Shown here: positions 12,476-38,174 of the stretch, piece by piece
Layout of the letters: the number at the start of each line of letters is the position of its first letter
How positions within the stretch are numbered: position 1 is the stretch's first letter
Program-made: the position numbers and the translations under genes
Notes under the pieces: model-generated
Told to the model about the DNA's origin: nothing
What the model saw: the letters and a program-made list of their open reading frames with translations, nothing else
Databases searched by the model: none
From: Clostridia bacterium
GTDB lineage: Bacteria; Bacillota; Clostridia; Oscillospirales; Acutalibacteraceae
Direction: 5' to 3'
NCBI GenBank assembly: GCA_017548045.1
Contig: JAFYNR010000063.1
Coordinates: forward strand, 1-42,965
Length of the DNA: 42,965 nucleotides

Positions 12476-13165
12476 TCACCTCATTTTAATTGATATTTCT
12501 CCCGAGGAGAGTGTTTCTTCGGTTCCGTCGCTGCGGCACACAATCAGATTGCAAAGGCTGTTTATTCCTTTTACCGTTGCGGTGAACTCTGTTCCGTTTT
12601 TTACGTATGTTACTTCTTTTCCGACAACAAAAAGCTTTTTTTCGTACTCAGCGATAATCCGATTGCTGTCGGTAAGCGATAGGAAATTTTTTGATACGGC
12701 AAAAGCGAGTTCTGTTTTGTCGCAGTCAACGTTGATACTGCCGGGATTCGGAATATCAGACGGAAAATCTTTTGTCGTAAGGTTGATTCCTATACCTAAT
12801 GCAATGTATTTTTCAGCGTTATGGAGAAAACATTCCGCAAGAATACCGCAGACTTTTTGCGTACCGATATAAACGTCGTTTACCCATTTGATTTGCGGCT
12901 TTATTCCGTGGTCTTCGAGTGCATTGCATACCGCAACCGCCGCGGCGGGTGTGATAAGCTCACAGCTGTCGGGTGCCTCAAACACAAGGGTCATATAAAG
13001 ACCTGTTCTGTCGGGCGAATAAAAGGATTTGCCCTGTCTGCCTCTGCCTGCGGTCTGTTTTTCGGCAATGATAAGAGAAGGCAGAGTGAGAGCTTCAATA
13101 TTCTGTTTTGCATAGGTATTTGTTGAGTCAACGGTGCTGAGAGATACAAGATTTATAAGCTTCAT
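12476..13165 (-). CDS. birA: Biotin-[acetyl-CoA-carboxylase] ligase, catalytic-domain-only form
   Basis: This enzyme activates biotin with ATP and transfers it to the acceptor lysine of biotin carboxyl carrier proteins. The 229-residue protein has the biotinyl-AMP-binding loop GRGRQGKSFYSP, the family motif KWVNDVY with its catalytic lysine, and a C-terminal SH3-like barrel (around VGKEVTYVKNGTEFTATVKGI). It lacks the N-terminal winged-helix DNA-binding domain, so it should be a ligase without repressor function (class I). GGAG lies about 9 bases before the ATG. It is the first gene of a minus-strand operon under its own promoter. Confidence 0.93.
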   Translation of the reverse strand: MKLINLVSLSTVDSTNTYAKQNIEALTLPSLIIAEKQTAGRGRQGKSFYSPDRTGLYMTLVFEAPDSCELITPAAAVAVCNALEDHGIKPQIKWVNDVYIGTQKVCGILAECFLHNAEKYIALGIGINLTTKDFPSDIPNPGSINVDCDKTELAFAVSKNFLSLTDSNRIIAEYEKKLFVVGKEVTYVKNGTEFTATVKGINSLCNLIVCRSDGTEETLSSGEISIKMR

Positions 13166-13194
13166 TTTGCGCTGCTCCGATGTAAATATAATTT

Positions 13195-13223
13195 ATTCTA
13201 TCATATGAAAAAAATAATTTCAA
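13195..13223 (-). promoter_or_regulatory. Promoter of the birA operon
   Basis: On the minus strand, TTGAAA (13218-13223) and TAGAAT (13195-13200) are separated by 17 bases. It is back-to-back with the glycyl radical operon promoter 30 bases away. Confidence 0.7.
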
Positions 13224-13251
13224 CAGTTTACTCAAATAAAGCAATTTAGTA

Positions 13252-13280
13252 TTGACAGTAAAAAATAAAAGGTTTAGAAT
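13252..13280 (+). promoter_or_regulatory. Promoter of the glycyl radical enzyme operon
   Basis: A consensus -35 box TTGACA (13252-13257), a 17-base spacer and TAGAAT (13275-13280) predict a start of transcription near 13287, about 23 bases before the activase start codon. I see no operator or riboswitch in the short leader, so control, if any, must come from a regulator encoded elsewhere. Confidence 0.8.
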
Positions 13281-13309
13281 TATTTTGATTAGGGAAAGGC
13301 GGTGAGGCC

Positions 13310-14014
13310 GTGAAAATACTTCAAAAAGGGTTTAATTATTCACAGGACGGTCCGGGAAACCGCCTGGTTTACCATCTTCAGGGCTGTAATTTTGCCTGTA
13401 AATGGTGTTCCAATGCAGACAGTATTCCGCCTGAAAATCCCAACGCAAAGGATTGTACGGTTGAAGAAATTTATGACGAAATAATACGCAGCCGTATGAT
13501 GTTTTTTGACGGTGGAGGGGTTACCTTCACGGGCGGTGAGGTGTGTATGCAGGCAGAGGAGCTTATTTCATTGCTGAAAAAGCTTAATGAAAGCGGAATT
13601 CACACCGCCGTTGAAACCAACGCTTCGTTTTATTCGTTGCGTGATGCATCGGAATACATAGATTATCTTATTGCCGATTTCAAGCATTATGATGATGAGC
13701 TTCACACAAAATGGGTTGGAGCTTCCAACAAATCCGTCAAAGAGAATATTGAGTATTTCCTTAAAAGCGGCAGACAGATTCACATAAGGATACCCGTTAT
13801 TCACGGCGTAAACGATACTCCCGACGGCTTTGCGGAATATTTCAGTAAATTTGATACGTCAAATGCAGTTTTTGAGTTCCTTGCTTACCATGAATACGGC
13901 AAGGATAAGTGGCAGGGCAATTATGAAATTGAAAACGGCTTTGTGCCGTCTGACAAAATAGAAGAGTTTACACGGAAATTCAACAGCTGCGGAATGAAAA
14001 CAGTCGTAACATAA
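13310..14014 (+). CDS. Radical SAM glycyl-radical-enzyme activase (PflA-like)
   Basis: The enzyme uses a [4Fe-4S] cluster and S-adenosylmethionine to abstract a hydrogen from the glycine of its partner glycyl radical enzyme, encoded directly downstream. The 234-residue protein has the cluster motif CNFACKWC (Cys26, Cys30, Cys33) and the SAM-binding GGE-type motif FTGGEV. It is as short as PFL activase and lacks the extra ferredoxin-like double-cluster insert that follows the radical SAM motif in many activases of eliminase-type glycyl radical enzymes. The start is GTG 13310. The gene ends 11 bases before the start of the partner. Confidence 0.94.
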   Translation: MKILQKGFNYSQDGPGNRLVYHLQGCNFACKWCSNADSIPPENPNAKDCTVEEIYDEIIRSRMMFFDGGGVTFTGGEVCMQAEELISLLKKLNESGIHTAVETNASFYSLRDASEYIDYLIADFKHYDDELHTKWVGASNKSVKENIEYFLKSGRQIHIRIPVIHGVNDTPDGFAEYFSKFDTSNAVFEFLAYHEYGKDKWQGNYEIENGFVPSDKIEEFTRKFNSCGMKTVVT

Positions 14015-14025
14015 GGAGAATGAAA

Positions 14026-16350
14026 ATGAACAGAATTCTTGACAGTGCAAAAATCACCGAAATGGCAAAAAAACTTTTTGCCGAAAAGAGAGCAGGCAAC
14101 CGCCTTGACGGCTGGTTTATTGCAAAAGAGGCAGAGCTTCGCCTTTCAAAGGAGTTTGAGGGGAAAAACGAAGAGGTCAAAAAGGCGCTTATACTCAGAG
14201 AAATCGTTAAGACAATTCCCATATATCTTAGCGATTATCAGCTTTTTGCCGGCACACAGGACGATGCTTTTGCAAGAAGCTACGCTCTGATTAACCCTAC
14301 ATTCAAGGTTGAAGAATTCAGCGGCTACTGTGACCCTGCGGCTGTTTTCGGTGATATCGACCCCAACGAAGAATTCACTGCCGAAAGAATAGGTGCGGCA
14401 AGGGATGAATTTGCGAAAACCGAATACGCAGTAAAGCTTGGTGAGGTTTACGGCAAAAACGAATGTTACACAAAAGAGGTTATTTTCTTCTTCGAGCAGG
14501 TTACAGGTCATCTTATTCCCGATATGCGTTATGCAATCAAAAACGGCGTTAAGGCTATGATTGAAAAGATTGAGGGTAAGGAGGGCAACGGATATAAGGC
14601 TTTCAGAATTGCTCTTGAAAGTGCAATTATCCTTGCAAACCGTTATGCGGATCTTGCGGCGGAGCAGGCAAAAACAGCTTCCGATGAAAGAAAAGCTCAG
14701 CTTGAAATAATGGAAAAGACCCTTCGCAAGGTGCCTGAAAGCGGTGCTGAAAATCTTTGCGAAGCAATTCAGGCATTCATTATTATGTGGCAGATTATGT
14801 GCCTTGAACAGACTCCCAACCCCTTTGCTTTCTCCGTAGGCAATGCAGACAGAATTTTTGAGCCTTACAGAAACGGACTTGATCGTGATACGGTTGCAGC
14901 CCTTTTCAAGCATTTTCTTGTATTTTTCAATGTTGCGGACAGAAGCTGGGCAATTTCGCAGAATATCATTATCAGCGGCAGAGATATAAACGGCAACGAC
15001 CTTACCAACGATTCATCATATGCACTTATGGATGCATATTACGATATGAACCTTCCTCAGCCTATTCTTTCGGTTAAGCTTCACAAGAATACACCTCGGA
15101 AGCTTTATGAAGAAATGGGAAGATTCCTTTTCACTCCCGGTGCGCTTACTCCCTCATTCTTCAATGACGATTCGCTGTTTACCGTTCTTTCGTCAAAGGG
15201 TGTTGCGGACTGCGACCTTGCGGATATTTCAATAGCAGGCTGTCAGGAGCCTCTTATTATGGGTAAGGATAACGGCAATACCACCAACAGCTGGCTTAAT
15301 CTTCCCAAAATTCTTGAAATGACTCTTACGGGCGGTGTTTCAACCATTACGGGCGAAAAACTCGTTGACGTTGAGCCTTGCAGACTTGAAAACGTGCGTG
15401 AAGCATTCTGGCAGAATGTTGAACGCTTTGTTGCCGCAATGGGTGCGGCTGCAAACGGTGCATCGGCCGCACTTTCAACCCAGAGAGTGCCCTTCCTTTC
15501 CTGCCTTATGGGAGGACTTGAAAACGGCATTGACGCAAGAGATACAAAGGCACAGGGCACTGAATACAACGGCAGCGGATGTCTTATTCACGGTGTATCC
15601 GTCATTGCCGACAGCTTTGCCGCTGTTGATAAACTTCTTGCGGAAAGACCTGAGGATGCTGATAAGCTTGTTGATGCGCTCAAAGCAGATTTCAACGGCT
15701 ACGAGGATTTGAGAGAATTCCTTCTCTCGGCAGATAAATTCGGCAACAATATCGAAGGTGTTGACCGTGAAGCGGGAGAAATAGCATCAAAGGTTGCGGA
15801 TATCGTTTCATCAACCAAGAATTATCTCGGCAATTCATTCAGACCCGATTTCAGTTCACCCTCAACTCATCTGCTTTACGGTTATTGGGTAGGAGCAACT
15901 CCCGACGGCAGAAAGTCAAGAGATATGCTGGGCTACGGTGTTGACCCTCTTTACGGCAGTGCCGAAAACGGTCTGGGCTTCCGTATGCTTTCAAATATGA
16001 AGATGCCCTTTGAAAAGATGAACGGCGGCTACGCTTCACATCTCGGCATTGACCCCAAATATTTTACTTCCGATAACACAGAAGGCAAGGGTGTTGAATT
16101 CAGAGATAAGGTTATCAATCCCTTGTTCTTCAATCCTATGAAGGATGGCGTTTCACCCTTCTATCTTTACGTTAACGTCACTACCGCCGAAATTCTCAGA
16201 AAGGTGCTTGCAGACCCCAAAAAGTATGCACCCAGCGGTGTTTACATTATGAGAATTCACGGCACTTTCGTTAACTTCCTTGACCTTTCACCTGCAATTC
16301 AGCAGGATATAATTACAAGACTTGACCCCAAGTCAACCGTTCTTTGCTGA
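14026..16350 (+). CDS. Glycyl radical enzyme of unknown substrate (PFL-like superfamily)
   Basis: This cytoplasmic, strictly anaerobic enzyme has 774 residues. The thiyl-radical cysteine is Cys406 in AGCQEPL, followed by Glu408, the Cys-x-Glu arrangement of diol-dehydratase, choline-lyase and related C-O/C-N/C-S-cleaving members. PFL itself has a Cys-Cys pair. The C-terminal radical loop reads IMRIHGTFVNFLDLSP, with Gly746 as the radical glycine; the usual RVxGY is altered to RIHGT. The distance from that glycine to the C-terminus and the following QQDIITR match the family. ATG 14026 is used because AAGGAG (14013-14018) is 7 bases upstream; ATG 14020 abuts it. The genes that follow encode a sugar kinase and phosphomannose isomerase, so a phosphorylated sugar, anhydrosugar or polyol is the most economical guess for its substrate. 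It is not a confident match to PFL, CutC, IslA, HypD or HPAD. Confidence 0.9.
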   Translation: MNRILDSAKITEMAKKLFAEKRAGNRLDGWFIAKEAELRLSKEFEGKNEEVKKALILREIVKTIPIYLSDYQLFAGTQDDAFARSYALINPTFKVEEFSGYCDPAAVFGDIDPNEEFTAERIGAARDEFAKTEYAVKLGEVYGKNECYTKEVIFFFEQVTGHLIPDMRYAIKNGVKAMIEKIEGKEGNGYKAFRIALESAIILANRYADLAAEQAKTASDERKAQLEIMEKTLRKVPESGAENLCEAIQAFIIMWQIMCLEQTPNPFAFSVGNADRIFEPYRNGLDRDTVAALFKHFLVFFNVADRSWAISQNIIISGRDINGNDLTNDSSYALMDAYYDMNLPQPILSVKLHKNTPRKLYEEMGRFLFTPGALTPSFFNDDSLFTVLSSKGVADCDLADISIAGCQEPLIMGKDNGNTTNSWLNLPKILEMTLTGGVSTITGEKLVDVEPCRLENVREAFWQNVERFVAAMGAAANGASAALSTQRVPFLSCLMGGLENGIDARDTKAQGTEYNGSGCLIHGVSVIADSFAAVDKLLAERPEDADKLVDALKADFNGYEDLREFLLSADKFGNNIEGVDREAGEIASKVADIVSSTKNYLGNSFRPDFSSPSTHLLYGYWVGATPDGRKSRDMLGYGVDPLYGSAENGLGFRMLSNMKMPFEKMNGGYASHLGIDPKYFTSDNTEGKGVEFRDKVINPLFFNPMKDGVSPFYLYVNVTTAEILRKVLADPKKYAPSGVYIMRIHGTFVNFLDLSPAIQQDIITRLDPKSTVLC

Positions 16351-16359
16351 GGTGATGCA

Positions 16360-17640
16360 ATGAAAATTATCGGACTTGATATCGGCACAACAAGCATATG
16401 CGGTGTTTGTGTCAATGCCGAAAACGGCGAAATACTGAAATCCGTCACAAAGGCAAACAATTCGTTCATTGCAACCGATAAAAGCTATGAAAAAATTCAG
16501 AATCCCGAAGCAATAATGGAAACGGTGTATGCCGTTGTCGATGAATTGGGTTCGGATGAAGTTTCGGCAATAGGCTTTTCGGGTCAGATGCACGGCATAG
16601 TTTATACCGATGCTCAGGGTAAGGCGGTAAGCCCCCTTTACATCTGGCAGGATGAACGTGCCGCAGAAGAATACAAGGACGGCAAGTCCTACGCACAGAC
16701 TCTCGGCTGCTTTGCAGGCTACGGTCTTGCAACGGATTTCTACAATGAACTTAACGGGCTTATTCCCGAAAATGCGGTGAGTCTTTGTACCATAGCCGAT
16801 TATGCGGCAATGTGTCTTTGCGGCTTGAAAAAGCCCCTTGTTCATATTACAAATGCGGCAAGTCTGGGATGCTTTGACGTTACAAAAAACTGTTTTACGG
16901 TTGAAAATCCCCGTCTGCCCGAGGTAACTGCAGATTTTAAGTCTGTGGGAACGTATAACGGTATTCCGGTTTGCGTTGCACTGGGCGATAATCAGGCCAG
17001 CTTTATCGGTTCTGTTTCCGATGCGGACGCCGCACTTATAAACGTTGGTACGGGTTCGCAGATTTCCTGGCTTACTTCCGTGCCCGTTGAAGGCGGTGCG
17101 GTTGAAAACAGACCCTTTGACGGTACCCGTTTTCTTGCGGCAGGCTGTGCACTTTGCGGAGGCAGGGCTTTTGCGATGCTTGAAGGCTTTTTCAGACAGA
17201 TAGCAGGCAGTGAGAATTCGGTTTACGGTTACATAGACGGGCTTCTTGAAAGCAAAGCCGAAACCACCCTCAAAGCCGATTGCCGTTTCTGCGGAACAAG
17301 AAACGACCCGTCCCGGAGAGGTTCCTTCACTAACGTTTCCGAGGAAAACTTTACACCCTCCGATTTTGCTCTTGCGGTGCTTAACGGTATGTCGGATGAG
17401 CTTTATCAGATGTACGAGAAGGGCGGCAAAAAAGCAAAGGGTCTTGTGTGTTCGGGCAACGGAATGAGAAAGAACAGGGCATTACGCAGAATAACGTCGG
17501 AGATGTTCGGCTGTGCAATAAAAATTCCTCGTTATGCAGAGGAGGCATCATACGGCGCGGCGCTTGCGGCATCGGTTGCGGCAGGCAAATTCAAAAATAT
17601 TGATGAGGCGTGCAGTCTTATCGGATATGCGGAGAATTGA
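16360..17640 (+). CDS. FGGY-family carbohydrate kinase, sedoheptulokinase-like
   Basis: This ATP-dependent sugar kinase of 426 residues has the N-terminal ATPase fold motif GLDIGTTS (residues 5-12), IGFSGQMHGIVY near residue 72 and SPLYIWQDER at 91-100. These last two are the form usual in sedoheptulokinase-like members of the FGGY family. It also has GDNQASF near residue 208. It is shorter than xylulokinase or glycerol kinase (about 500 residues). The gene begins 9 bases after the glycyl radical enzyme stop codon. It probably phosphorylates the substrate or a product of that enzyme. Whether the sugar is sedoheptulose, another ketose or an anhydrosugar cannot be told from the sequence. Confidence 0.85.
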   Translation: MKIIGLDIGTTSICGVCVNAENGEILKSVTKANNSFIATDKSYEKIQNPEAIMETVYAVVDELGSDEVSAIGFSGQMHGIVYTDAQGKAVSPLYIWQDERAAEEYKDGKSYAQTLGCFAGYGLATDFYNELNGLIPENAVSLCTIADYAAMCLCGLKKPLVHITNAASLGCFDVTKNCFTVENPRLPEVTADFKSVGTYNGIPVCVALGDNQASFIGSVSDADAALINVGTGSQISWLTSVPVEGGAVENRPFDGTRFLAAGCALCGGRAFAMLEGFFRQIAGSENSVYGYIDGLLESKAETTLKADCRFCGTRNDPSRRGSFTNVSEENFTPSDFALAVLNGMSDELYQMYEKGGKKAKGLVCSGNGMRKNRALRRITSEMFGCAIKIPRYAEEASYGAALAASVAAGKFKNIDEACSLIGYAEN

Positions 17641-17642
17641 TT

Positions 17643-18659
17643 ATGTTTTATAATGAACCTATTTTCTTTGAAAAGAACAGAGTGTTCCGTGTTTACACCG
17701 GCGGAAAGCTTTTTTCGGATTTCTTCGGAGATGATTCAACAGACGGCTTTTATCCCGAAGAGTGGGTTGCCTCAAGCGTTAAAGCGCTCAACGAGGGCAG
17801 CACCGATGAATACGAGGGTGTTTCGAAAATCAGAGGTACGGATATTTACCTGAGCGATGCTGTTGAAGAATACAAAGCCGAAATTCTCGGCGGCAGAGAC
17901 GATTTGGGAATTCTCACAAAGATTCTTGACAGTGCAATAAGGCTTCCCGTGCAGGCACATCCTGACAAGGCATTTTCCGAAAAGTATTTTTCTTCAAAAT
18001 ACGGCAAGGAAGAAAGCTGGATTATCCTTGCAACACGCCCCGATGCAAAAATCTTTTTCGGTTTCAAGGACGGCGTAACTATTGAAGAATTCGAAAAAGC
18101 CATTGACGAAAGCGAAAACGGCGGCGATGCAATGGAAAATCTGCTTTGCTCAATAAGCGTGAAGGCAGGCGACGTAATATATATCCCCGCAAAAATGGTT
18201 CACGCAATCGGCAAGGGCTGTCTGCTTCTTGAAGTGCAGGAGCCTACGGATTTCACGATTCAGCCTGAGCGCTGGTGCGGTGAATACAAGCTGTCGGATA
18301 AAGAAATGTATCTGGGTCTTGACCGCGAAAAAGCCCTTGAATGCTTTGATATGGGCAAAAAATATCCTGCTCCTCTGACTCCCAAAACAATCAGCGAAGC
18401 AGACGGCGTGAAGTATGAAGCGATAATTGATGAAACAATTACTTCAAGCTTTGCGGTGAGAAGCGTTACCCTCAGCGGCGGAGCCTTTGAACTCGGCAGG
18501 GGTGCGGCTGTTTACGTTGTAACCGAGGGTAACGGTGAAATTATCGGTGACGGATACAACACCGCAGTTAAAAAAGGCGATTATTTCCTTATGCCTGAAA
18601 ATGCCAAAAATAAATTTTCGGTAACTGGAAATCTTAAATTGGTTGAATGCTTTGCATAA
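17643..18659 (+). CDS. Mannose-6-phosphate isomerase, class I
   Basis: This zinc enzyme interconverts mannose 6-phosphate and fructose 6-phosphate. It has 338 residues and carries the zinc ligands Gln104 and His106 (PVQAHPDK), Glu124 (ESW) and His187 (VHAIGKG), all intact. The short single-domain form is usual in Bacillota (ManA/Pmi/GmuF type). ATG 17643 is preferred over an upstream start inside the kinase gene; GGAG lies 8 bases before it, 2 bases after the kinase stop. In this operon it could feed fructose 6-phosphate or a related ketose phosphate into glycolysis, or act on an unusual aldose phosphate. It could equally connect to mannose released by the alpha-mannosidase at 33519. Confidence 0.92.
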   Translation: MFYNEPIFFEKNRVFRVYTGGKLFSDFFGDDSTDGFYPEEWVASSVKALNEGSTDEYEGVSKIRGTDIYLSDAVEEYKAEILGGRDDLGILTKILDSAIRLPVQAHPDKAFSEKYFSSKYGKEESWIILATRPDAKIFFGFKDGVTIEEFEKAIDESENGGDAMENLLCSISVKAGDVIYIPAKMVHAIGKGCLLLEVQEPTDFTIQPERWCGEYKLSDKEMYLGLDREKALECFDMGKKYPAPLTPKTISEADGVKYEAIIDETITSSFAVRSVTLSGGAFELGRGAAVYVVTEGNGEIIGDGYNTAVKKGDYFLMPENAKNKFSVTGNLKLVECFA

Positions 18660-18690
18660 TACCAACAATAATATATAAAGGAGGTAATTT

Positions 18691-19869
18691 ATGAACACAA
18701 ATGCAATGTTTAAAATCGGTTACGGTCTTTACGTTCTGACCGCAAGGGAAAACGGCTTTGATAACGGATGCGTAATCAACACCGTGACACAGGTTACATC
18801 AAACCCCAACAGAATAACCGTTGCCGTCAACAAGGCAAACAAAACCCACGATATGATTCTTGCAACCAACGAATTCAACGTGAGTATTCTTACAACGGGC
18901 GCAAAATTTGAGCTTTTCAAGGCTTTCGGCTTCAGAAGCGGCAAAGATGTTGATAAGTTTGAGGATTTCAATGCAAAAGAAAGAAGCGAAAACGGTATTT
19001 ATTATATTACCGATTCGACCAATGCATATATTTCCGCAAAGGTAGTTTCAGCAACAGATCTCGGTACTCATACTCTTTTCCTTGCGGACGTTACGGATTG
19101 TGAAATTCTTTCGGAAGTTCCGAGCGTGACTTATGACTACTACCATAAGTATATCAAACCAAAGCCCGAAGTAAAAAAGACCGCAAAGGTTTATTACCGC
19201 TGTAAGATATGCGGCTATATTTATGAGGGCGACGAGCTTCCCGCAGATTTTATCTGCCCTCTGTGCAAGCATCCCGCTTCCGACTTTGAAAGGGTTGAGG
19301 CGGTTGAAGAAAATACAAACAAAGGAGAAATAACAATGAATCTTAAAGGCACAAAAACAGAACAGAATCTTATGACTGCATTTGCAGGCGAGTCACAGGC
19401 AAGAAACAAGTACACATATTTTGCATCGGTTGCAAAAAAGGAAGGCTTTGAGCAGATTTCAGCTATTTTCACCGAAACTGCAAACAACGAAAAAGAGCAC
19501 GCAAAAATGTGGTTCAAGGCTCTCGGTGAGCTTGGCGATACCGCACAGAATCTTCTCCACGCGGCAGAAGGCGAAAACTACGAATGGACCGATATGTATG
19601 CTACGTTTGCAAAGGAAGCCGAAGAAGAAGGCTTTGCTGAGCTTGCAGAAAAATTCCGTATGGTAGCCGCTATTGAAAAGACACACGAAGAAAGATACCG
19701 TGCACTTCTCAACAACGTTGAAATGCAGAAGGTGTTTGAAAAGGCAGAAGAAACAATGTGGGAATGCCGTAACTGCGGTCACCTTGTAATGGGTAAGAAG
19801 GCCCCCGAGGTTTGCCCCGTTTGCGCTCATCCTCAGGCTTACTTCGAAGTAAGAAAAGAAAACTATTAA
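18691..19869 (+). CDS. Flavoprotein-rubredoxin-rubrerythrin fusion with internal translation start
   Basis: The 392-residue protein joins three known parts. Residues 1-155 are a flavin-reductase-like FMN-binding domain of the high-molecular-weight rubredoxin type. Residues about 168-198 are a rubredoxin domain with Cys171, Cys174, Cys189 and Cys192. Residues 216-392 are a complete rubrerythrin: a diiron four-helix domain with [25 protein letters not shown] and IEKTHEERY, then a second rubredoxin-like domain with CRNC and CPVC. Together they make an NAD(P)H-fed peroxide and oxygen reductase on one chain. Inside the frame, AAAGGAG (19321-19327) stands 8 bases before ATG 19336, so free rubrerythrin (177 residues) may also be made. 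An AAAGGAGG site precedes the first ATG. Only 31 bases separate it from the isomerase gene, with no terminator between them, so it probably belongs to the same operon. Confidence 0.9.
19321..19338 (+). promoter_or_regulatory. Internal ribosome binding site and start codon for rubrerythrin
   Basis: AAAGGAG followed 8 bases later by ATG lies within, and in frame with, the fusion gene, exactly at the domain boundary. It has the form of a separate gene start retained after two genes fused. Confidence 0.7.
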
Positions 19870-19890
19870 TCGTTATATTTTGATTTTATT

Positions 19891-19920
19891 TCCGGGAACG
19901 ATTTGTTCCCGGATTTTTTT
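19891..19920 (+). terminator. Terminator of the glycyl radical enzyme/rubrerythrin operon
   Basis: TCCGGGAAC at 19891-19899 pairs perfectly with GTTCCCGGA at 19905-19913 around a 5-base loop. Seven T residues follow. Confidence 0.92.
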
Positions 19921-19951
19921 GCAAATTTTTGATGAACATTCAAAAATACTG

Positions 19952-19980
19952 TTGCTATTTTGTTCCTCAAAATATATAAT
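19952..19980 (+). promoter_or_regulatory. Promoter of the cyclophilin/SecB-like operon
   Basis: TTGCTA at 19952-19957 and a perfect TATAAT at 19975-19980 are separated by 17 bases. An AGGAG site (19999-20003) and ATG 20015 follow. Confidence 0.72.
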
Positions 19981-20014
19981 TGATATGTAGAATAAAATAG
20001 GAGAGTATGGACTT

Positions 20015-20695
20015 ATGAAAAAACTTATCAGAATTATTGCGCTTTCACTTGCACTTGTTTTTGTTTTCGGTGCCTGCGGCAATACGGAAAAACCCGTTAC
20101 CGACGGTGATAAATCAACGTCGGATACTGCTCAGTCAAACAAAAATTCAAGTGTATCCGGTAACACAAAGGTTAAGTTTACAATGGAAGACGGCAGTGAG
20201 TTTGTTATTGAGCTTCACCCCGAATACGCACCGCAGACCGTTGATAACTTTGTGAAGCTTGTGTCGGAGGGATTCTATGACGGACTTACCTTCCACAGAA
20301 TAGTTGACGGCTTTATGGCGCAGGGCGGTGACCCCAACGGTGACGGCACAGGCGGAAGCCCCGATGAAATTTACGGTGAGTTTGCTTCAAACGGCTATAT
20401 GGATAACAAGCTTTCACACACAAGAGGCGTTGTTTCAATGGCACGTAAAGGTGATCCTCAAAAGGCGTATACGGGCTATGAATCGTCTGAATACACCAAT
20501 TCCGCATCCTCACAGTTCTTCATCTGTTATGCGGATGCAACCTTCCTTGACGGCGATTATGCCGCATTCGGTGTTGTTACCGAGGGTATGGAGGTTGTCG
20601 ATTCATTCCTTGACGTTGCCAGAACATACGGTAATGACGGCGCGCTTTCAAAACCTGTTACACCTATCGTTATTGAAAAGGCAGAGGTGATCTGA
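20015..20695 (+). CDS. Cyclophilin-type peptidyl-prolyl isomerase lipoprotein
   Basis: This foldase catalyses cis-trans isomerisation of prolyl bonds in exported proteins at the outer face of the membrane. The 226-residue protein has a lipoprotein signal peptide ending FGAC (Cys21), a Ser/Asn/Thr-rich spacer to about residue 52, and a single cyclophilin domain. Landmarks are the catalytic Arg in FHRIVDGFMAQGGDP, then SMAR, SSQFFICYADATFLDG and AFGVVTEGM. It is the first gene of a tight run; the SecB-like gene begins directly after its stop codon. The pairing with an export chaperone fits a role in secretion and folding. Confidence 0.92.
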   Translation: MKKLIRIIALSLALVFVFGACGNTEKPVTDGDKSTSDTAQSNKNSSVSGNTKVKFTMEDGSEFVIELHPEYAPQTVDNFVKLVSEGFYDGLTFHRIVDGFMAQGGDPNGDGTGGSPDEIYGEFASNGYMDNKLSHTRGVVSMARKGDPQKAYTGYESSEYTNSASSQFFICYADATFLDGDYAAFGVVTEGMEVVDSFLDVARTYGNDGALSKPVTPIVIEKAEVI

Positions 20696-21106: not shown

Positions 21107-22540
21107 ATGGATATTATGGATCTCGCCTCAAAAGGCATAGTTGCAATAACTAAATCATTCGGCAAGAAAGTGTGTAAGAACGAAACCGCTCCCGAAATCG
21201 AAAAGGTTGCACCCACCGTAATCAGCGGTAACGGATACAGGGCAGGCTTTGCAACCGATGAAATTATGCCCGACCTTGAAAGCGGTAAAACCTATTGGAT
21301 TGCAGGCCACGGCTCGGGTCACAAAATGGAAGGCGTGCTTTCACCCGTTTACATAAGCGCAGTGTGGATTGACTGCGGTGATGATGAGGGTATGCTCTGG
21401 CTCGGTGCTGATATTGTCGGTATGACAAGAGTTGAAGTCAACAAAATCCGTTCAATGATTATGGCATCACCCAAAATCAAGGGATGCAAATGTATCAATT
21501 TCAGCTGTACCCACAGCCACTCGGGTATTGATACACTCGGTTACTGGGGCAAGCCCAATTTTGTAAGCATTCCTTCAGACGGTAAAGACCCTGAGTATAT
21601 GGATATGCTTATGAATAAGGCTGTCAAGGTTGCGGAGGAGGCTTATGCCGCAAGAAAGAACGGCAAGCTTTACACAGGCGATATCAAAATTGAAGACGGT
21701 CTCCAGACCCGCAGAGGCTTCCTTGATAAGCATGAAATTCTTACAAGATTCCGCTTTGTACCTGATGACGGCAGTGCGGAAACCTGGATTATGAATTTCG
21801 GTGCACACCCCAATTCGCTTGGCGGCTCAAACCGTATGCTCAGCGGTGAATATCCCTATTTTATGCGTGAGCAGATTAAAGCCGAAAAGGGTGCGAACGT
21901 ACTTTTCGGTATCGGTGCCATCGGTGCCATGGATGCGGCTGAACTTGACGAAAAAGACAATGTAAACTGCATAAAGCTTCAGGCAAAAATGATTGCCGAT
22001 GCGGCATTGAAGATTGATAACGATAAAGAATTACAGCCCGAAATGAAGGTTATGCAGCAGCCCTTCTATCTTCCCGTAGGTAACTACGTTCTTACTCTGC
22101 TTGCAATGCGCCACGTTATGAGCTTCAAGGCATATCCCTGCAAGGAAAGTGATATCGGCATTGCAATGATGACCGAGATGACTTACATGTCAATCGGCGG
22201 CAAGAAGGTTCTTCTTCTTCCCGGTGAAAGCTTTGTGTCAACTGTTTACGGCGGCTATAAATCGGCAGAAACCTCACCTACGGGTAAGGGCGGAGAAATC
22301 AACCCCACACCTCTTGCTGAGATTGCAGGGGAGCCTGAAATGGTTGTTTTCGGCGTATCAAACGATATGACAGGCTACGTTGTACCTCCCAACGATTTCA
22401 TTCTTAACCCCACACAGCCCTATCTTAACGGCTATAAGGATAAGTTTGATCTTAACCATTACCACGAAACAAATTCAATGGGTATTGCGGCTCAGCAGGT
22501 TATTGCAGATGCCTTTGCCGATATGGTAAGCAGATTCTGA
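21107..22540 (+). CDS. Neutral/alkaline ceramidase-like hydrolase, no signal peptide
   Basis: The 477-residue protein resembles the N-terminal catalytic domain of neutral ceramidases, zinc enzymes that cleave the N-acyl bond of ceramide. Diagnostic stretches are the early GHGSGHKMEG, then WLGADIVGMTRVEVNKIR, the zinc motif region FSCTHSHSGID (usually THTHSGPGG) and NFGAHPNSLGG. The C-terminal Ig-like domain of full-length ceramidases is absent and there is no signal peptide, so it is probably cytoplasmic. Members like this exist in many Bacillota without known sphingolipids, and their substrate is unknown; any amide or ester would be a guess. It follows the SecB-like gene by 18 bases and precedes the TauE/SafE gene by 1 base. 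Confidence 0.75.
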   Translation: MDIMDLASKGIVAITKSFGKKVCKNETAPEIEKVAPTVISGNGYRAGFATDEIMPDLESGKTYWIAGHGSGHKMEGVLSPVYISAVWIDCGDDEGMLWLGADIVGMTRVEVNKIRSMIMASPKIKGCKCINFSCTHSHSGIDTLGYWGKPNFVSIPSDGKDPEYMDMLMNKAVKVAEEAYAARKNGKLYTGDIKIEDGLQTRRGFLDKHEILTRFRFVPDDGSAETWIMNFGAHPNSLGGSNRMLSGEYPYFMREQIKAEKGANVLFGIGAIGAMDAAELDEKDNVNCIKLQAKMIADAALKIDNDKELQPEMKVMQQPFYLPVGNYVLTLLAMRHVMSFKAYPCKESDIGIAMMTEMTYMSIGGKKVLLLPGESFVSTVYGGYKSAETSPTGKGGEINPTPLAEIAGEPEMVVFGVSNDMTGYVVPPNDFILNPTQPYLNGYKDKFDLNHYHETNSMGIAAQQVIADAFADMVSRF

Positions 22541-31699: not shown

Positions 31700-31730
31700 A
31701 TAAGTAATCTTTTATTTTATGAGGTGCCAT

Positions 31731-33506
31731 ATGATAAAGCCGTATAAGCTTAAATCACATGTGTGCAGATTCTGCACCTTCTTTCAGGCGGGAGATGAGA
31801 AAATTCCCGAAGCCCTTTTGAAAACAGAAAATCAGAAGCCGGATCTTGAAGGCTTTGCCTATCCGTTACCCTCAAAGAAAAGCGATTACACCTGCTATGC
31901 AAAGACGGGTGAAATCGAATGGTACGGTGCATCAAACGGTCTTACACGCTACGATGCGAATGCGGAGCGTGAAGAAGACATCGTTATGTATTTCAGCGCC
32001 CCCAGAGATTTGCTTGATAACAATGTCAAGGCAATTATGCCTGATGGTGAAAACGTATGGGTGCTTACCGATACGGGTGCGGCATACATTGAAATGCGTC
32101 TTGTGGATGCTGAAGAAAAGGCGGATATTCTTCTTGAAGAAACACTCAAATACGTTGACCGCAGAGGTATGGTAAGCCAGAAACGCCTTTTTGAGGGCAG
32201 AAATCTTGAGTCAATCAAGCCCTACGGTCATTCGGATAATGACGGCACTTTCACCGGCAACTTTGCTTTCGGTGAAATGTTCCGCTATGCAACGTTCAAG
32301 CGTGAGAAAGGCGAGGAGCATCCCGATACGGTAAAGGCAAGAGCAGTTGCAACAAGAGCCGTGGAAGCCTGCCTTCTTCTTCTTCATATTCACAGCAGAG
32401 GCGACGGCTTTGCCGCAAGAACGTATCTCTGTGCCGATGAGCCCGTTCCCGATGACGGACTTTTCCTCAGAATTACAGACGGCAAGGCAACCTGCCTCAA
32501 AACCACCGATTCGGAAAAGAGGGGAGTTACGGGCACTGTTATCGATGCATCCGCACCCGTTCCCGAAAGGCTTGCAAAACTCTATACCGAAAAGGGCTAT
32601 ACAATCAACGATATCATATATAAGGCTGATACCAGCAGTGATGAAATTACGCATCATTTCATCAATCTTCTTACAGCTCACGAAATTCTCGGTGACGATT
32701 CTGAGCTTGATGAAATCATCGTTTCTTCAACAAAAAAGCTGATGATGCATATTATTGACCACGGCTACGAGCTTCACGATTTCACGGGCAAGCCTACCAC
32801 CTGGGCAAAGTGGAGCACAAGCTACTTCAATACCGAATTCGGCTGGGTTGACGGTACTCTCAACTCTGCTCAGCTTCTTATGTACCTGCTTGTAACAATG
32901 AAGGTTACGGGCGAAGAAGGCATATGGCGTGAGCATTATGACCGTCTTATCAACGAGCTCGGTTATGCCGACAGAGCCGAAAAGCATTTTGACCGTCTTT
33001 ATCAGGCAAGCCTTTCGATGGGCTTTGATTATTTTGAAGATATTATGTACGGCGATCATATGCTTGCAACCCTTGCTTATTACGGAATCTGTACTCTTGA
33101 AAAGGACGAAAAACTTCTTGCAAAATACAGAAAGGGCTATAAGGCTTGGAGAACTTCAATCGAGAGAGAGCATAATCCCGGCTATGACCTTCTTTATGCA
33201 GTTGCCTGCCCCGATGAAGAGGTTGACCTTGACCGCCACGCAGAGTGGTTTTACAGAACAAACGCAAGCCGTCTTGCGGCAGGTGTTTCACTCGTAGGCA
33301 GGCACGATGTTCCTGTCAAAAAGCTTCGTGCAGGTGCAGAAGAAATCTCAACCCTTCTTCCTCCCGACGAAAGATTTATTTCAAAATATGACCGTAATCC
33401 CTATGACCTTAAGAATGAGGATTCGGGCGGAATAATGTGTGTTGAAAGCTGTTACGTCTACACGTTGGCGTATTGGTTCGGCAGATACCACGGATTTTTT
33501 GAATAA
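31731..33506 (+). CDS. Glycosidase-like protein with shortened propeller, paralogue of the 9754-11853 gene
   Basis: The 591-residue cytoplasmic protein shares the C-terminal module of the propeller-glycosidase: NDGTFTGNFAFGEMFRYA corresponds to NDGLWTQTYIGALAYAYA, and GKPTTWAKWSTSYFN corresponds to GLPTTWAIWDPEQLN. Only one or two propeller-like blades remain at residues about 60-140 (EIEWYGASNGLTRYD, NVWVLTDTGAAYIEM), against five or more in the paralogue. The N-terminus contains HVCRFCTFF, a Cys-x2-Cys pair. ATG 31731 is used because GAGGTG precedes it; ATG 31719 is upstream of that site. It heads the alpha-mannosidase operon with 12 bases between the genes, which supports a role in glycan breakdown. 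No named hydrolase family can be assigned. Confidence 0.7.
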   Translation: MIKPYKLKSHVCRFCTFFQAGDEKIPEALLKTENQKPDLEGFAYPLPSKKSDYTCYAKTGEIEWYGASNGLTRYDANAEREEDIVMYFSAPRDLLDNNVKAIMPDGENVWVLTDTGAAYIEMRLVDAEEKADILLEETLKYVDRRGMVSQKRLFEGRNLESIKPYGHSDNDGTFTGNFAFGEMFRYATFKREKGEEHPDTVKARAVATRAVEACLLLLHIHSRGDGFAARTYLCADEPVPDDGLFLRITDGKATCLKTTDSEKRGVTGTVIDASAPVPERLAKLYTEKGYTINDIIYKADTSSDEITHHFINLLTAHEILGDDSELDEIIVSSTKKLMMHIIDHGYELHDFTGKPTTWAKWSTSYFNTEFGWVDGTLNSAQLLMYLLVTMKVTGEEGIWREHYDRLINELGYADRAEKHFDRLYQASLSMGFDYFEDIMYGDHMLATLAYYGICTLEKDEKLLAKYRKGYKAWRTSIEREHNPGYDLLYAVACPDEEVDLDRHAEWFYRTNASRLAAGVSLVGRHDVPVKKLRAGAEEISTLLPPDERFISKYDRNPYDLKNEDSGGIMCVESCYVYTLAYWFGRYHGFFE

Positions 33507-33518
33507 TGAGGTGCAGAT

Positions 33519-35990
33519 ATGAATAACAAAATACATATTATCAGCAATGCTCATCTTGACCCCATCTGGCTCTGGAGATGGCAGGAAGGATGCGGCGAAG
33601 TGCTTCAGACGTTCAGAAGTGCCGTTGAAAGAATCAAAGAATACAAAGGAATGATTTTTACCTGTTCGTCGGCATCGTACTATAAGTGGGTAGAAGAAAT
33701 TGACCCCGAGCTTTTTGAAGAAATCAGAAAGCTTGTTAAAAAAGGTAAATGGGTGCCCGTCAACGGCTGGTGGGTACAGCCCGATTGCAATATGCCTTCG
33801 GCAGAAAGCTTTGCCCGTCAGGCGCTTTACAGCCAGCTTTATTACTATGAAAAATTCGGTGAAATCTGCAAGACGGGTTACAACGTTGATTCCTTCGGTC
33901 ATAACGCAATGCTTCCTCAGCTTCTCAATAACGGCGGTATGCGTTGCTACGTTATGATGCGTCCCGGTATGAACGAGAATTCCGAAATTCCCGAAAACCT
34001 TTTCTGGTGGGACAGCCCCGACGGCTCACGTGTTCTCACTTACAGAATTCCTTACAGCTACGGTGTTAACGGTAAGGGTGATATTGACAGAGAGCTTCCT
34101 TTGCTTAAGGAACGTGTTAAGAATACGGGTCACGGAATGATGTTTTTCTTCGGTGTAGGTAACCACGGCGGCGGACCTACAAAGGGTGACCTTGACTATA
34201 TTCTTGAACTCAAAAAAGACGGTTATGAGGAGCTTGAGTATTCAAGCCCCGACGAGTATTTTTCGGAGATGTGTGCAGACAGGCTTGATCTCCCCACCTG
34301 GAGCGATGAGATGCAGCACCATGCAAGCGGCTGCTACTCCGCAACGTCAATGGTGAAGCAGCTTAACAGAAAAGCGGAATACTGGCTTGCAAATGCAGAA
34401 AAATGGAATACCGTATCCGCAAAGATATCCGATCTGCCCAAGGCAACCGAAGAATTCGGCAAAGCCTGGCAGGAGGTATGCTTCAATCAGTTCCACGATA
34501 TTCTTTGCGGCTGTTCGATTATGGAAGCATATGAGGATGTGCGTGATTCCATGGGCTATGCAATGAAGATTGCCGCCAACGAAGAAAACAAGGCAATGCT
34601 CAAAATTGCACAGCAGGTTGATACCTGGCTTGACGGCGTAACCGATGCACAGTCAAGTATTGCACGCCATCACTGCCGCAATCTTAAATTCCCCAGACCC
34701 GTTATCGTTTTCAACCCCAATTCCTTTGAGGTTGAAGCACCCGTAAGAACCTATCATCCTTCAAGAAAGGTTGAGGATTCCGAGGGTAACGAGGTGCTTT
34801 TCCAGAACGTGCGTTCATCACGCTCAAACGATTCTCACCTTGACACGGTGTTCAACGCAAAGGTACCCGCACTGGGTTACGCAACCTATTGGCTGTGGCA
34901 CGAGGATTCGGAATTTACCGAGAGAAGCACTCTTGACGGCGGTATTTCCGCAGAGGGTCTTACCGTTGAAAACAAACACATAAAGGTTGAGTTTGACGGA
35001 GAAACAGGCGGTATAAAGAGCCTTGTTTCAAAGGCGGACGGCACGGAATTTGTTGGCGGAGAATTCTGCGTTCCCACCGTTGTTGATAATTCACAGCCCG
35101 ATACCTGGGCACATAATATTTTCAAATTTGATAAAACAATAGGTAAGATGAGCCTTAAATCGGTTGAGCTTGTTGAATGCGGTGCGCTCAGAGCAGTTAT
35201 GCGTGTGAAGCATACCTACGGCGGCTCATATCTTACTCAGGATTTTATTCTCGGTGCAGACAGCAAGAATATCAGAGTCAAGTGCCGTGTTCTCTGGCAG
35301 GAGCCTCTGACGATACTTAAAATGCCTGTTACCGTTGAGGGCGAGAATCCCGTTTCAACCTATGAAATTCCCGCAGGCTTCATCAAGCGACCCTGCAACG
35401 GTGAAGAAGAACCTGCTCTTACCTGGGGCGATATTACCGCAGGCGGCGAAAACCGCAAGGGTGTTGCAATTATAAGCGATGCAAAATACAGCTATGATTG
35501 TCCCGGTAACACTCTCAGACTTACAATGCTAAGAAATTCAATTTTTGCCGACCATTATTCAGACCGTCCCGATGCTGATTTCAGCTATTGTGATGAGGGT
35601 ATTCACAGGTTTGAATATGCGGTTTATCCTCACGTCGGTGAGGCGGAAGATAGCGGAATTCAGCGTATTGCGGCAGCCTTCAATTCAAAGCTTGTTGCAG
35701 TGCCCGTAAGCTATCATAAGGGTACAATGCCTCTCAAAAAGAGCTTTATCAGCATCAACAAGCCCAATATCCGCCTTGAAGCATTCAAGTTCTGCGAGGA
35801 CGGCTCGGGTGACGTTGTGATGCGTCTTTGCGAAACAGACGGTAAGCCCGTGAAGGCGGCGATTGTCTGCGATGTTGCAGAGGCAGGCTTCTATGCTGAT
35901 TTCAGAAAGCTTGAAGTAAAAACCTTCCGCATAAACAGCGAGGGTTACGTAACCGAAACAAACTACCTTGAAGGTATAGTTGAAGAATAA
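33519..35990 (+). CDS. Glycoside hydrolase family 38 alpha-mannosidase
   Basis: The 823-residue protein carries the zinc-binding NAHLDPIWLWRW at its N-terminus and the nucleophile Asp in YNVDSFGHNAMLPQLL. It also has the NHGGGPTKGD loop, and QFHDILCGCSI, the histidine-aspartate motif of the catalytic domain. A GH38 C-terminal beta-sandwich follows (ENKHIKVEFDGETGGIKSL). It cleaves alpha-linked mannose and, lacking a signal peptide, works on imported oligosaccharides. Mannose released could be funnelled via the phosphomannose isomerase at 17643 after phosphorylation. It follows the glycosidase-like gene by 12 bases with a GAGGTG site. Confidence 0.95.
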   Translation: MNNKIHIISNAHLDPIWLWRWQEGCGEVLQTFRSAVERIKEYKGMIFTCSSASYYKWVEEIDPELFEEIRKLVKKGKWVPVNGWWVQPDCNMPSAESFARQALYSQLYYYEKFGEICKTGYNVDSFGHNAMLPQLLNNGGMRCYVMMRPGMNENSEIPENLFWWDSPDGSRVLTYRIPYSYGVNGKGDIDRELPLLKERVKNTGHGMMFFFGVGNHGGGPTKGDLDYILELKKDGYEELEYSSPDEYFSEMCADRLDLPTWSDEMQHHASGCYSATSMVKQLNRKAEYWLANAEKWNTVSAKISDLPKATEEFGKAWQEVCFNQFHDILCGCSIMEAYEDVRDSMGYAMKIAANEENKAMLKIAQQVDTWLDGVTDAQSSIARHHCRNLKFPRPVIVFNPNSFEVEAPVRTYHPSRKVEDSEGNEVLFQNVRSSRSNDSHLDTVFNAKVPALGYATYWLWHEDSEFTERSTLDGGISAEGLTVENKHIKVEFDGETGGIKSLVSKADGTEFVGGEFCVPTVVDNSQPDTWAHNIFKFDKTIGKMSLKSVELVECGALRAVMRVKHTYGGSYLTQDFILGADSKNIRVKCRVLWQEPLTILKMPVTVEGENPVSTYEIPAGFIKRPCNGEEEPALTWGDITAGGENRKGVAIISDAKYSYDCPGNTLRLTMLRNSIFADHYSDRPDADFSYCDEGIHRFEYAVYPHVGEAEDSGIQRIAAAFNSKLVAVPVSYHKGTMPLKKSFISINKPNIRLEAFKFCEDGSGDVVMRLCETDGKPVKAAIVCDVAEAGFYADFRKLEVKTFRINSEGYVTETNYLEGIVEE

Positions 35991-36047: not shown

Positions 36048-38174
36048 ATGCCTTGGATATGGCTTGACGATAAACTTTATCCTCAGATTCAGCGCAATCG
36101 GTATAATATTCTCTATGATTGCGAAAACAAAAATACGGAAGAATTCAGATATGCCGTTGCGGATATATCAAAAACATTTCGTTTTGACAGGACGGTTGAA
36201 AAAATAAAAATCCGTGTCAGTGCGGATAATACCTATATACTCCGCATAAACGGCAAATTTATCGGTATCGGGCCTGCGTCATCCGGCGGTGATTTCCTTT
36301 GTACGGGCAAAACACCGAAGCACTATGCCGATATTTATGAGCTGGACTTTGAAGATGTTGACGTTCTTGATATAGGGGCGAAGGTCAGCCTTCAGCCTGA
36401 AATGCTTACCAATTATTCGAGAGGACACGGCGGATTTTATCTTTCGGGAACGGTGAAATTCAAAGACGGAACGTCGGAAGGAATAGAAACCGATTCAACC
36501 TGGTGTGCCGTACCCGATATGGCATACAATGATTTCAGAAACTACAACTCGGAAAATAAAATAATTCAGATTGCGGATGCCTTTGAGACCGAAGATATAT
36601 GGGGCGTTGAGGATGCGTATATTCCGTCAAGGTCGTATAGCAAAATATTCGGAACCGAATATTCAGTCGGCGCAGGCAAAACCGAAGCCTTTGATTTTGA
36701 GTTTGACAGGATTTACGGTGTTCATCCCGTATTGAGTTGTGACGGCAGATGCGGAATTACGCTGGAAACATACGAACTCAAAGGGCAGGAAAAAACCGTG
36801 GAAAAGGTTGTTTTCGACAATCGTGACGAGGAATATTTTTCGTTCCGTATGCACAGCGCCGGTGAGGGTAAACTCATTATTGAAAACAAAGATTCATACG
36901 ATATAACGGTTAAACTGTCGTTTATTGCGCCCTGGTATCCCGTAGAAGCGGAAGGCAGCTTCAAAACAAGCAGTGAAGAACTGAATAAGATATATGACGT
37001 GTGTAAGCATACTCTTAAAATCTGCCGTCAATCCCTTCATCTTGACAGCACAAAGCATCAGGAGCTTCTTGCCTGCACGGGAGACTACAACATCGAAAGC
37101 CTTATGACGATTTTTTGCTACGGCGATATGCGCCTTGCGGAATTTGACCTTATGCGTACGGCAGACTGGCTTGTTGCCAATAAGGGTGTTATGTTCCACA
37201 CAACTTACAGCCTGATATGGGTGCAGATGCTTCACGACGTTTACGTTGCAACGGGCAGAAAGGACCTTTTGCTTTATTGCCGTGAGGCGCTCGGAACCCT
37301 GCTTGCAAGGTTTGAAACCTATATCGGAGAAAACAGCGTTATCGATAATCCGCCGGATTTTATGTTTGTTGACTGGACGGTTATTGACGGCTTTTCAATG
37401 CATCATCCGCCGAAGGCACTGGGGCAGACGGTTCTCAACTGCTTTTACTATAATGCCCTCATTTATGCCGTGAAAATATATTCATATCTTGATGAAAACG
37501 CTGTTGCCGATAAACTGAAAAATAAAGCCTCCGTTTTCAGAAAAAGGTTCAATGAAGTTTTTTATGATGAGGAACGCAAACTTTATTTTGACGGTCTCGG
37601 TACTCCCTACGGCGGCGAAAAGCATTATCATCCCGCCAACACAGATAAAAAGTATTTTTCAAAATATCCCAATATCCTTGCTTCCCTTTACGGCCTTGCC
37701 GACGATGAGCTTGCCGCTGATATTCTTGAAAGAATTATATTTGACGGCTCGCTGCAGGATATTCAGCCGTATTTTATGCACTACATGCTGTGTGCATTGC
37801 GCAAGCATAAGCTTTTTGATAAATATGGAATGAAAATTCTGATGCGATGGGCGGATGTTGTGAATGAATGTGACAAGGGTCTCAAGGAAGGCTGGATTGC
37901 TCCCGAAGAAAGCTATTCGTTTGACCATTCACACGCGTGGGGCGGTACGCCCGCTTACCATATGCCTTCGGCAATAACAGGTATGGAAATTCTTGAACCC
38001 GGAATGAAAACACTTAAATTCAGTCCGGCTCTTTACGGGCTTGACTATGCCGAAATCAACATTCCCACTCAGTACGGAATGATTAATTTCAGTTGTGAAA
38101 AAGGCAAGCCTGCGGTGATAAATGCTCCCGAATGCATTAAAATATTAATGGGTGATAATTATGAGAATTCTTGA
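36048..38174 (+). CDS. Glycoside hydrolase family 78-like alpha-L-rhamnosidase
   Basis: The 708-residue protein opens with a beta-sandwich (residues about 1-150, with YILRINGKFIGIGPAS, the carbohydrate-binding-like part of rhamnosidases). It continues into a six-hairpin alpha/alpha barrel: LHLDSTKHQELLACTGDYN is the counterpart of the catalytic Asp/Glu region, then FMFVDWTVIDGF and HSHAWGGTPAYHMPSAITG, and finally a closing beta-sandwich. It has no signal peptide. The usual RDER stretch is changed to KHQE, so specificity for rhamnose is not assured and another deoxy- or uronic-type sugar is possible. The stop codon overlaps the next gene by 14 bases. Confidence 0.82.
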   Translation: MPWIWLDDKLYPQIQRNRYNILYDCENKNTEEFRYAVADISKTFRFDRTVEKIKIRVSADNTYILRINGKFIGIGPASSGGDFLCTGKTPKHYADIYELDFEDVDVLDIGAKVSLQPEMLTNYSRGHGGFYLSGTVKFKDGTSEGIETDSTWCAVPDMAYNDFRNYNSENKIIQIADAFETEDIWGVEDAYIPSRSYSKIFGTEYSVGAGKTEAFDFEFDRIYGVHPVLSCDGRCGITLETYELKGQEKTVEKVVFDNRDEEYFSFRMHSAGEGKLIIENKDSYDITVKLSFIAPWYPVEAEGSFKTSSEELNKIYDVCKHTLKICRQSLHLDSTKHQELLACTGDYNIESLMTIFCYGDMRLAEFDLMRTADWLVANKGVMFHTTYSLIWVQMLHDVYVATGRKDLLLYCREALGTLLARFETYIGENSVIDNPPDFMFVDWTVIDGFSMHHPPKALGQTVLNCFYYNALIYAVKIYSYLDENAVADKLKNKASVFRKRFNEVFYDEERKLYFDGLGTPYGGEKHYHPANTDKKYFSKYPNILASLYGLADDELAADILERIIFDGSLQDIQPYFMHYMLCALRKHKLFDKYGMKILMRWADVVNECDKGLKEGWIAPEESYSFDHSHAWGGTPAYHMPSAITGMEILEPGMKTLKFSPALYGLDYAEINIPTQYGMINFSCEKGKPAVINAPECIKILMGDNYENS

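Follow-up and report, generated by a model that had tools for sequence, protein, structure and literature searches.

A conserved glycyl radical enzyme and FGGY-family kinase module of Clostridia with a proposed role in sugar metabolism

Glycyl radical enzymes (GREs) that open sugar phosphates have been reported recently. A review (PMC12441222), which cites Ma et al., describes YbiW and PflD as 1,5-anhydroglucitol-6-phosphate and 1,5-anhydromannitol-6-phosphate lyases, with 1-deoxyfructose 6-phosphate as product. These systems are linked to the phosphotransferase system (PTS), and a gene for fructose-6-phosphate aldolase neighbors ybiW in E. coli. The B12-independent glycerol and propane-1,2-diol dehydratases are another described group of GREs. 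Here, we analyze a GRE that is encoded on a contig from a Clostridia bacterium (JAFYNR010000063.1, assembly GCA_017548045.1), of which positions 1 to 42,965 were analyzed; this stretch is referred to as the window. The GRE, its activase and an FGGY-family carbohydrate kinase form one conserved module, in which the kinase is a near-obligate partner. A phosphomannose-isomerase-like gene is an optional partner and, within the genus, is confined to GRE-bearing genomes. The module is real, conserved and, as far as searched, undescribed (no description of the gene set was found among the matches listed in the open-licence PMC literature). It stays within the GRE superfamily and is no new kind of system.

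The four genes stand in one tight operon behind a promoter-like site, as the initial annotation had claimed:

13252-13280, + strand: promoter-like site, sigma-70-type, TTGACA-17-TAGAAT (11/12 match; consensus match only)
13310-14014, + strand: GRE activase (radical SAM), 234 aa, short type, GTG start (Pfam Radical_SAM, 67.7 bits)
14020-16350, + strand: glycyl radical enzyme, 776 aa (Pfam PFL-like, 329 bits)
16360-17640, + strand: FGGY-family carbohydrate kinase, 426 aa (Pfam FGGY_N 67.4 bits, FGGY_C 49.0 bits)
17643-18659, + strand: phosphomannose-isomerase-like protein (type I family, divergent), 338 aa (TIGR00218 91.3 bits, cut-off 116.2)

The intergenic gaps are 5 or 11, 9 and 2 bases, the first depending on the GRE start codon. 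An alternative start (ATG at 14026, 774 aa) has a better Shine-Dalgarno spacing than the start at 14020. Residues are numbered here from 14020 (Cys408/Glu410); numbering from 14026, as used in the initial annotation, gives Cys406/Glu408. The promoter had been called strong, and its site is indeed the best of 20 promoter-like sites within 13000-20100, where shuffles average 10 sites. Against TIGR02494, the activase scores 160.6 bits, slightly below the cut-off of 174.35, with its best stretch at profile positions 101-263 of 293.

A pattern scan of a genome collection of 84,980 species returned 83 relatives, and 80 loci were kept. As the scan is built on short peptide patterns of the query, it favors close relatives. 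The titles of the 80 loci name Clostridia, Oscillospiraceae, Ruminococcaceae, Lachnospiraceae, Blautia, Bilifractor and similar taxa (one only Bacillota), and many name the gut of goat, sheep, cattle, deer, yak, buffalo or horse. The kinase gene is near the GRE gene in 65 of the 71 loci with at least 3 kb of downstream sequence (within 150 bases in 58), and the activase gene is found within 2 kb upstream in 70 of the 74 loci with at least 1 kb of upstream sequence. The isomerase-like gene is near the GRE gene in 38 of the 67 loci with about 4.4 kb of downstream sequence. Both genes had been expected to stay beside GRE orthologs, which holds for the kinase and, in part, for the isomerase-like gene. 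In the genus (37 genomes), the kinase (E < 1e-60) occurs in 24/24 GRE-positive versus 1/13 GRE-negative genomes (Fisher p 7e-9) and the isomerase-like gene (E < 1e-100) in 17/24 versus 0/13 (p 2e-5); these counts were read from tables, and all Fisher p values given here ignore kinship and genome incompleteness. In three genomes (G003, G009 and G019), the isomerase-like gene is on another contig than the GRE gene. Among 391 genomes of the class, the GRE family is present in 14 (including the window's own), and the kinase occurs in all 14 versus 19 of 377 GRE-negative genomes (p 5e-17). In a 398-genome sample of the phylum, the GRE family is found only in the window's own genome. Among plasmid records, the best 15 of 131 GRE matches are 24.6-27.5% identical and the best 15 of 68 kinase matches 25.5-28.3%.

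The GRE has a PFL-like sequence domain and fold. The Cys-x-Glu active site that had been recognized previously, distinct from the Cys-Cys of pyruvate formate-lyase, reads Cys408-Gln409-Glu410 and is invariant in 39 of 39 aligned orthologs. The predicted radical residue Gly748, which is located in an altered loop (RIHGT) with a short insertion, is invariant in the same 39. The Pfam model Gly_radical (PF01228) gives no match up to E 10 for the GREs of the window and of two orthologous loci (L057 and L083), whereas PflD (108 bits) and YbiW (113.5 bits), used as controls, are recognized. The region still aligns with other GREs, and the failure of this model thus indicates divergence of the domain, not its absence.

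No curated cut-off of a characterized family is passed, in line with the initial placement of the GRE outside these families. Pyruvate formate-lyase was rejected (Cys-Gln-Glu instead of Cys-Cys; TIGR01255 56 bits versus a cut-off of 994), as were CutC (146 of 1050 bits), HypD (166 of 1100) and HpsG (175 of 1000). The same applies to PflD, with 163 bits versus a cut-off of 1109 for PRK09983, the model that we take to stand for PflD; the models matched included none for YbiW. In phmmer comparisons, the GRE reaches only 124 bits to PflD and 88 bits to YbiW. Among the 31 PDB chains listed as matches to PflD itself, 28 score far higher, at 288 bits or more. The best PDB sequence match is glycerol dehydratase (194 bits). 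Fold ranking gave no placement: the first 14 PDB entries are within 1.4 Z units. Glycerol and propanediol dehydratases are among the tied-best fold matches, and HypD, CutC, HpsG and isethionate lyase differ from the top match by at most 3.3 Z units. Family members have 59-98% identity, while other GREs among 60 related genomes reach at most 32%. Bridging GREs were sought in the 391 class and 398 phylum genomes, with at most two candidates scored per genome. Full-length family frames score 1345-1466 bits, partial ones 341-1090 bits, and the next GREs at most 266 bits. Judged by these sequence scores, the GRE represents a discrete, separate family. One ortholog (L094, G024:C12:31085-33409) is reported with one in-frame TAA, which may reflect an assembly error or decay. 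Two order-level relatives (G051 and G057), with 11 and 9 GRE-like matches per genome, are unusually rich among the 60 genomes searched.

The kinase has the FGGY_N and FGGY_C domains in common with FGGY kinases such as xylulokinase and gluconokinase, and the motifs Gln-Met-His-Gly and Gly-Asp-Asn are kept in 19 of 19 kinases. It is below every NCBIfam cut-off, the best match being xylulokinase (102.6 bits versus 380), and no sedoheptulokinase model or PDB sequence turned up among its matches (Pfam, NCBIfam, PDB). From the class sample, 18 of the 19 kinase loci that are devoid of a GRE were inspected. The kinase gene adjoins a GH32 beta-fructosidase gene in two of these (a 4-base overlap in L181, 6 bases apart in L187). 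In a third, L194:3363-6479, a GH32 fructosidase (residues 123-409) and the FGGY kinase (from residue 583) are fused in a single open reading frame (ORF) that codes for 1038 aa; this fusion suggests what the kinase substrate may be. A DUF2961 protein adjoins the GRE-free kinase in four loci of one genus (L190, called by Pfam, and L186, L192 and L196, called by near-identical starts) and is also encoded inside the GRE operon of L199. DUF2961 corresponds to GH172, for which two activities are reported: that of a difructose dianhydride I synthase/hydrolase, with alpha-fructofuranosyl links as its target, and the degradation of D-arabinan. A ketose-releasing enzyme (GH32 or DUF2961) is beside the kinase in 7 of the 18 GRE-free loci. 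In a FastTree phylogeny of 96 sequences, considered for topology only, GRE-linked kinases interleave with those linked to GH32 or DUF2961, so that one kind of substrate is likely. Because some GRE-free orthologs are coupled or fused to GH32 or adjoin DUF2961, a fructose-like ketose, rather than sedoheptulose, is the most likely substrate of the kinase. The heptulose considered as a substrate in the initial annotation is probably wrong, given the GH32 coupling or fusion in three GRE-free genomes. Known fructokinases belong to families other than FGGY; a GH32-fused FGGY ketose kinase would thus be unusual. The sole GRE-free genome of the genus with the kinase (L136:4874-8650) encodes it between an N-acetylneuraminate lyase (above cut-off) and a likely arabinofuranosidase. 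In L141, a GRE-linked kinase is followed by a Pfam-confirmed GH51 enzyme with a start very similar to that of this likely arabinofuranosidase.

The isomerase-like protein is only partly consistent with its initial label as a phosphomannose isomerase. It passes the Pfam MPI cupin domain PF21621 (29.3 versus 27) but fails the type I catalytic domain (21.0 versus 22) and, as listed above, the ManA model TIGR00218. With class I ManA it shares the family, the MPI cupin domain and the four metal-site residues (Gln, His, Glu, His), which are kept in 40 of 40 isomerase-like proteins. It differs from ManA in these sub-cut-off scores and in two replacements. The Ser of the LSVQ motif, present in 5/5 canonical copies, is Pro in 40/40 isomerase-like proteins, and FTIQPE stands where ManA has the TYR-Y-D segment with its Arg. 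A second copy in the window's genome is a proper ManA (165.6 bits). We take the isomerase-like protein for a putative specialized aldose-ketose isomerase. The earlier idea that it returns the product to glycolysis is weak, since a proper ManA is encoded elsewhere in the genome and ManA-typical residues are lost. A second clade of isomerase-like proteins (38-42% identity to the window protein) occurs in three GRE-positive genomes (L132, L133 and L134), beside a transporter that reads as MFS; in L132 and L133, an L-rhamnose-isomerase-like gene, so called by sequence likeness, is nearby.

Further genes are found in the operons of orthologous loci. A fructose-6-phosphate aldolase gene, above the NCBIfam cut-off, is located between the GRE and kinase genes in L083 (gap of 9 bases, overlap of 4), and another, also above the cut-off, overlaps the kinase gene in L057, the orthologous locus of Blautia schinkii DSM 10518. 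Sugar metabolism with YbiW/PflD-like chemistry, as had been proposed, gains from these two cases, which resemble the neighborhood of ybiW. A GH38 alpha-mannosidase is encoded in the operon of nine loci: behind the isomerase-like gene or the kinase gene in L021, L022, L023, L026, L077, L079, L080 and L033, and between the GRE and kinase genes in L200 (calls by Pfam for L021 and L080, by cluster or similarity for the others). As L021, L022, L023, L026, L077 and L079 form one clade of the kinase tree, these cases correspond to at most about four separate events. The window itself codes for a GH38 alpha-mannosidase (33519-35990) that shares 39% identity with its counterpart in the L021 operon; it is flanked by a 595-aa protein without a Pfam match (31719-33506) and a rhamnosidase-like protein (36048-38174). 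Single cases are GH32 in L036 (which is kinase-free), GH2 in L031 and GH51 in L141, and the operon of L034 contains L-rhamnose isomerase and rhamnulose-1-phosphate aldolase. In L054, L062, L064, L065 and L075, the module is flanked by genes that look like those of ribose-type ABC transporters (called by eye and cluster, with one binding protein scanned), and no PTS gene was recognized by eye in the neighborhoods. For these two reasons, the imported sugar is probably unphosphorylated. This distinguishes the window family, with its kinase and ABC-type transporters, from the PTS-linked YbiW and PflD. Arginine-biosynthesis-like genes are divergently oriented upstream in about ten loci and look like chromosomal neighbors.

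We tentatively propose that the GRE represents a new subfamily of glycyl radical eliminases that act on sugars and would convert a free polyol or anhydro-alditol to a fructose-like ketose, which is then taken up by the FGGY kinase. What we observe is gene pairing, motifs and fold, and from these we infer every chemical step. The activase would place the radical on Gly748, from where it would pass to Cys408. The Cys408 thiyl would abstract hydrogen at a C-OH carbon of the unphosphorylated polyol or anhydro-alditol, with Glu410 taking the hydroxyl proton. The neighboring C-O bond would break, yielding a fructose-like ketose, most simply a 1-deoxyketohexose, in analogy to the products that YbiW and PflD reportedly form from phosphorylated substrates, and its phosphorylation by the kinase would give a 1-deoxyketose 6-phosphate. 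GRE eliminations give carbonyl compounds, and it is by analogy that the GRE is predicted to deliver a ketose, because each of the recurrent kinase neighbors (GH32, DUF2961, the isomerase-like protein) is able to supply one. In some species, fructose-6-phosphate aldolase might split the product into glyceraldehyde 3-phosphate and hydroxyacetone; 1-deoxyfructose 6-phosphate is the kind of compound that this aldolase can cleave. The isomerase-like protein might feed this ketose pool from an aldose of mannose configuration. That all parts combine into a PTS-free radical sugar pathway, with an outlying GRE with a remodeled loop, an undescribed FGGY ketose kinase and a repurposed phosphomannose-isomerase paralog feeding mannose-configured sugars, is doubtful.

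Several observations weigh against this proposal. The kinase is missing from 6 of the 71 loci (L036, L059, L061, L069, L070 and L074) and the isomerase-like gene from 29 of the 67. GH32 is not tied to the GRE in the genus (9/24 GRE-positive versus 5/13 GRE-negative genomes) and is absent from the window's genome, and 11 of the 18 GRE-free kinase loci have neither GH32 nor DUF2961. Some kinase neighbors are at odds with fructose, namely N-acetylneuraminate lyase and GH51 in L136 and the genes for rhamnose metabolism in L034. GH38 occurs in all 37 genomes of the genus, which weakens the mannose theme and leaves no link to the GRE at the genome level. The aldolase model TIGR00875 has no match in the window's genome nor in 12 of the 23 other GRE-positive genomes of the genus. 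In the remaining 11, all matches are below the cut-off, and such matches are also found in 7 of the 13 GRE-negative genomes. A general aldolase step was thus rejected, and the hydroxyacetone route cannot be general. It should also be noted that the order of reactions, GRE before kinase, is itself something we infer.

This order could be reversed. If the FGGY kinase acted first, phosphorylating an anhydro-alditol or ketose, the GRE would then open or dehydrate the phosphate ester, as in a PTS-free version of YbiW and PflD, which is closest to the order given in the initial annotation. Both of these enzymes are reported to act on 6-phosphates, according to the review PMC12441222 and the titles of 8id7 and 8id0. 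The aldolase genes in L083 and L057 and the lack of recognizable PTS genes beside the module would also fit. However, the kinase also occurs in GRE-free loci beside fructosidases, and hence its product need not always meet a GRE. Alignment with PflD and YbiW showed no common phosphate site, although an alignment is not a structural test. Known FGGY kinases act on ketoses, linear polyols or acids, not on pyranose anhydro-alditols. We consider this order possible, at a low probability, and do not favor it. Less probable still is a heptulose pathway, with sedoheptulose 7-phosphate as the product of the kinase and dehydration of a heptulose or heptitol by the GRE. In its favor, the kinase belongs to the FGGY family without reaching the xylulokinase cut-off, and a likeness to sedoheptulokinases had been noted in the initial annotation. 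Also, 13 of the 24 GRE-positive genomes of the genus lack a match to TIGR00875 (transaldolase/aldolase), so that sedoheptulose handling may be unusual. The coupling and fusion of kinase orthologs to GH32 speak against it, and no heptose gene was recognized by eye in the neighborhoods; we regard this pathway as very unlikely.

Two other readings concern the GRE reaction itself, and both are unlikely. The GRE might be a small-polyol dehydratase that uses glycerol or propane-1,2-diol as an outlet for the electrons of sugar fermentation. This would agree with glycerol dehydratase as the best PDB sequence match, with the tied-best folds and with the alcohol dehydrogenase and aldo-keto reductase genes that precede the GRE gene in L064 and L065. 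The Cys, the Glu and the Gly-His histidine of the B12-independent dehydratases are kept in the window GRE, but three substrate-site positions are changed: Phe269, Ala270 and Thr422 align to His281, Ser282 and Asp447 of glycerol dehydratase, which we take to be its substrate site (for both roles and numbering). The structures 1r8w, 5i2a and 9rco all keep His-Ser and His-Asp at these positions. Microcompartment or aldehyde dehydrogenase genes were not recognized by eye, with no search aimed at them. Alternatively, the GRE might free a ketose from a sugar conjugate (e.g., a deoxyhexityl amine or a sulfosugar) by cleaving it at a C-N, C-S or C-C bond. C-N and C-S lyases share the Cys-x-Glu motif, and HypD, CutC, HpsG and isethionate lyase are close in the fold ranking. 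The scores for CutC, HypD and HpsG are far under their cut-offs, and no amine or sulfite gene was recognized by eye as an operon member. The reading that we tentatively favor remains that of an eliminase acting on a free polyol or anhydro-alditol ahead of the kinase.

Downstream of the isomerase-like gene, the following features are found:

18691-19869, + strand: flavin reductase-rubredoxin-rubrerythrin fusion (Pfam and NCBIfam matches)
19891-19913, + strand: terminator-like hairpin (10-pair stem, 3-base loop, T-rich tail; strongest of the stretch)

The fusion gene may be the last gene of the operon transcript. Its operon membership is weak, since its cluster is present in only 7 of the 80 loci. 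The rubrerythrin fusion, whose gene immediately follows the operon, may shield the oxygen-sensitive GRE. Further downstream, a 477-aa protein without a Pfam match at E 1e-4 (21107-22540) is conserved at this place among close relatives (11 loci, cluster c9).

There are many GRE families without an assigned substrate, and GREs decide whether anaerobic gut bacteria can use inert C-O, C-N and C-S bonds. As the standard glycyl radical domain model misses the window GRE, other such enzymes may be overlooked. The near-obligate kinase, some GRE-free relatives of which are coupled with or fused to fructosidases, makes a fructose-like ketose the likely product. If the proposal is true, the radical breakdown of anhydro-hexitols, recently reported in a PTS-based form, would gain a kinase-based route, and the gene set of many Clostridia from the gut of herbivores would be explained.

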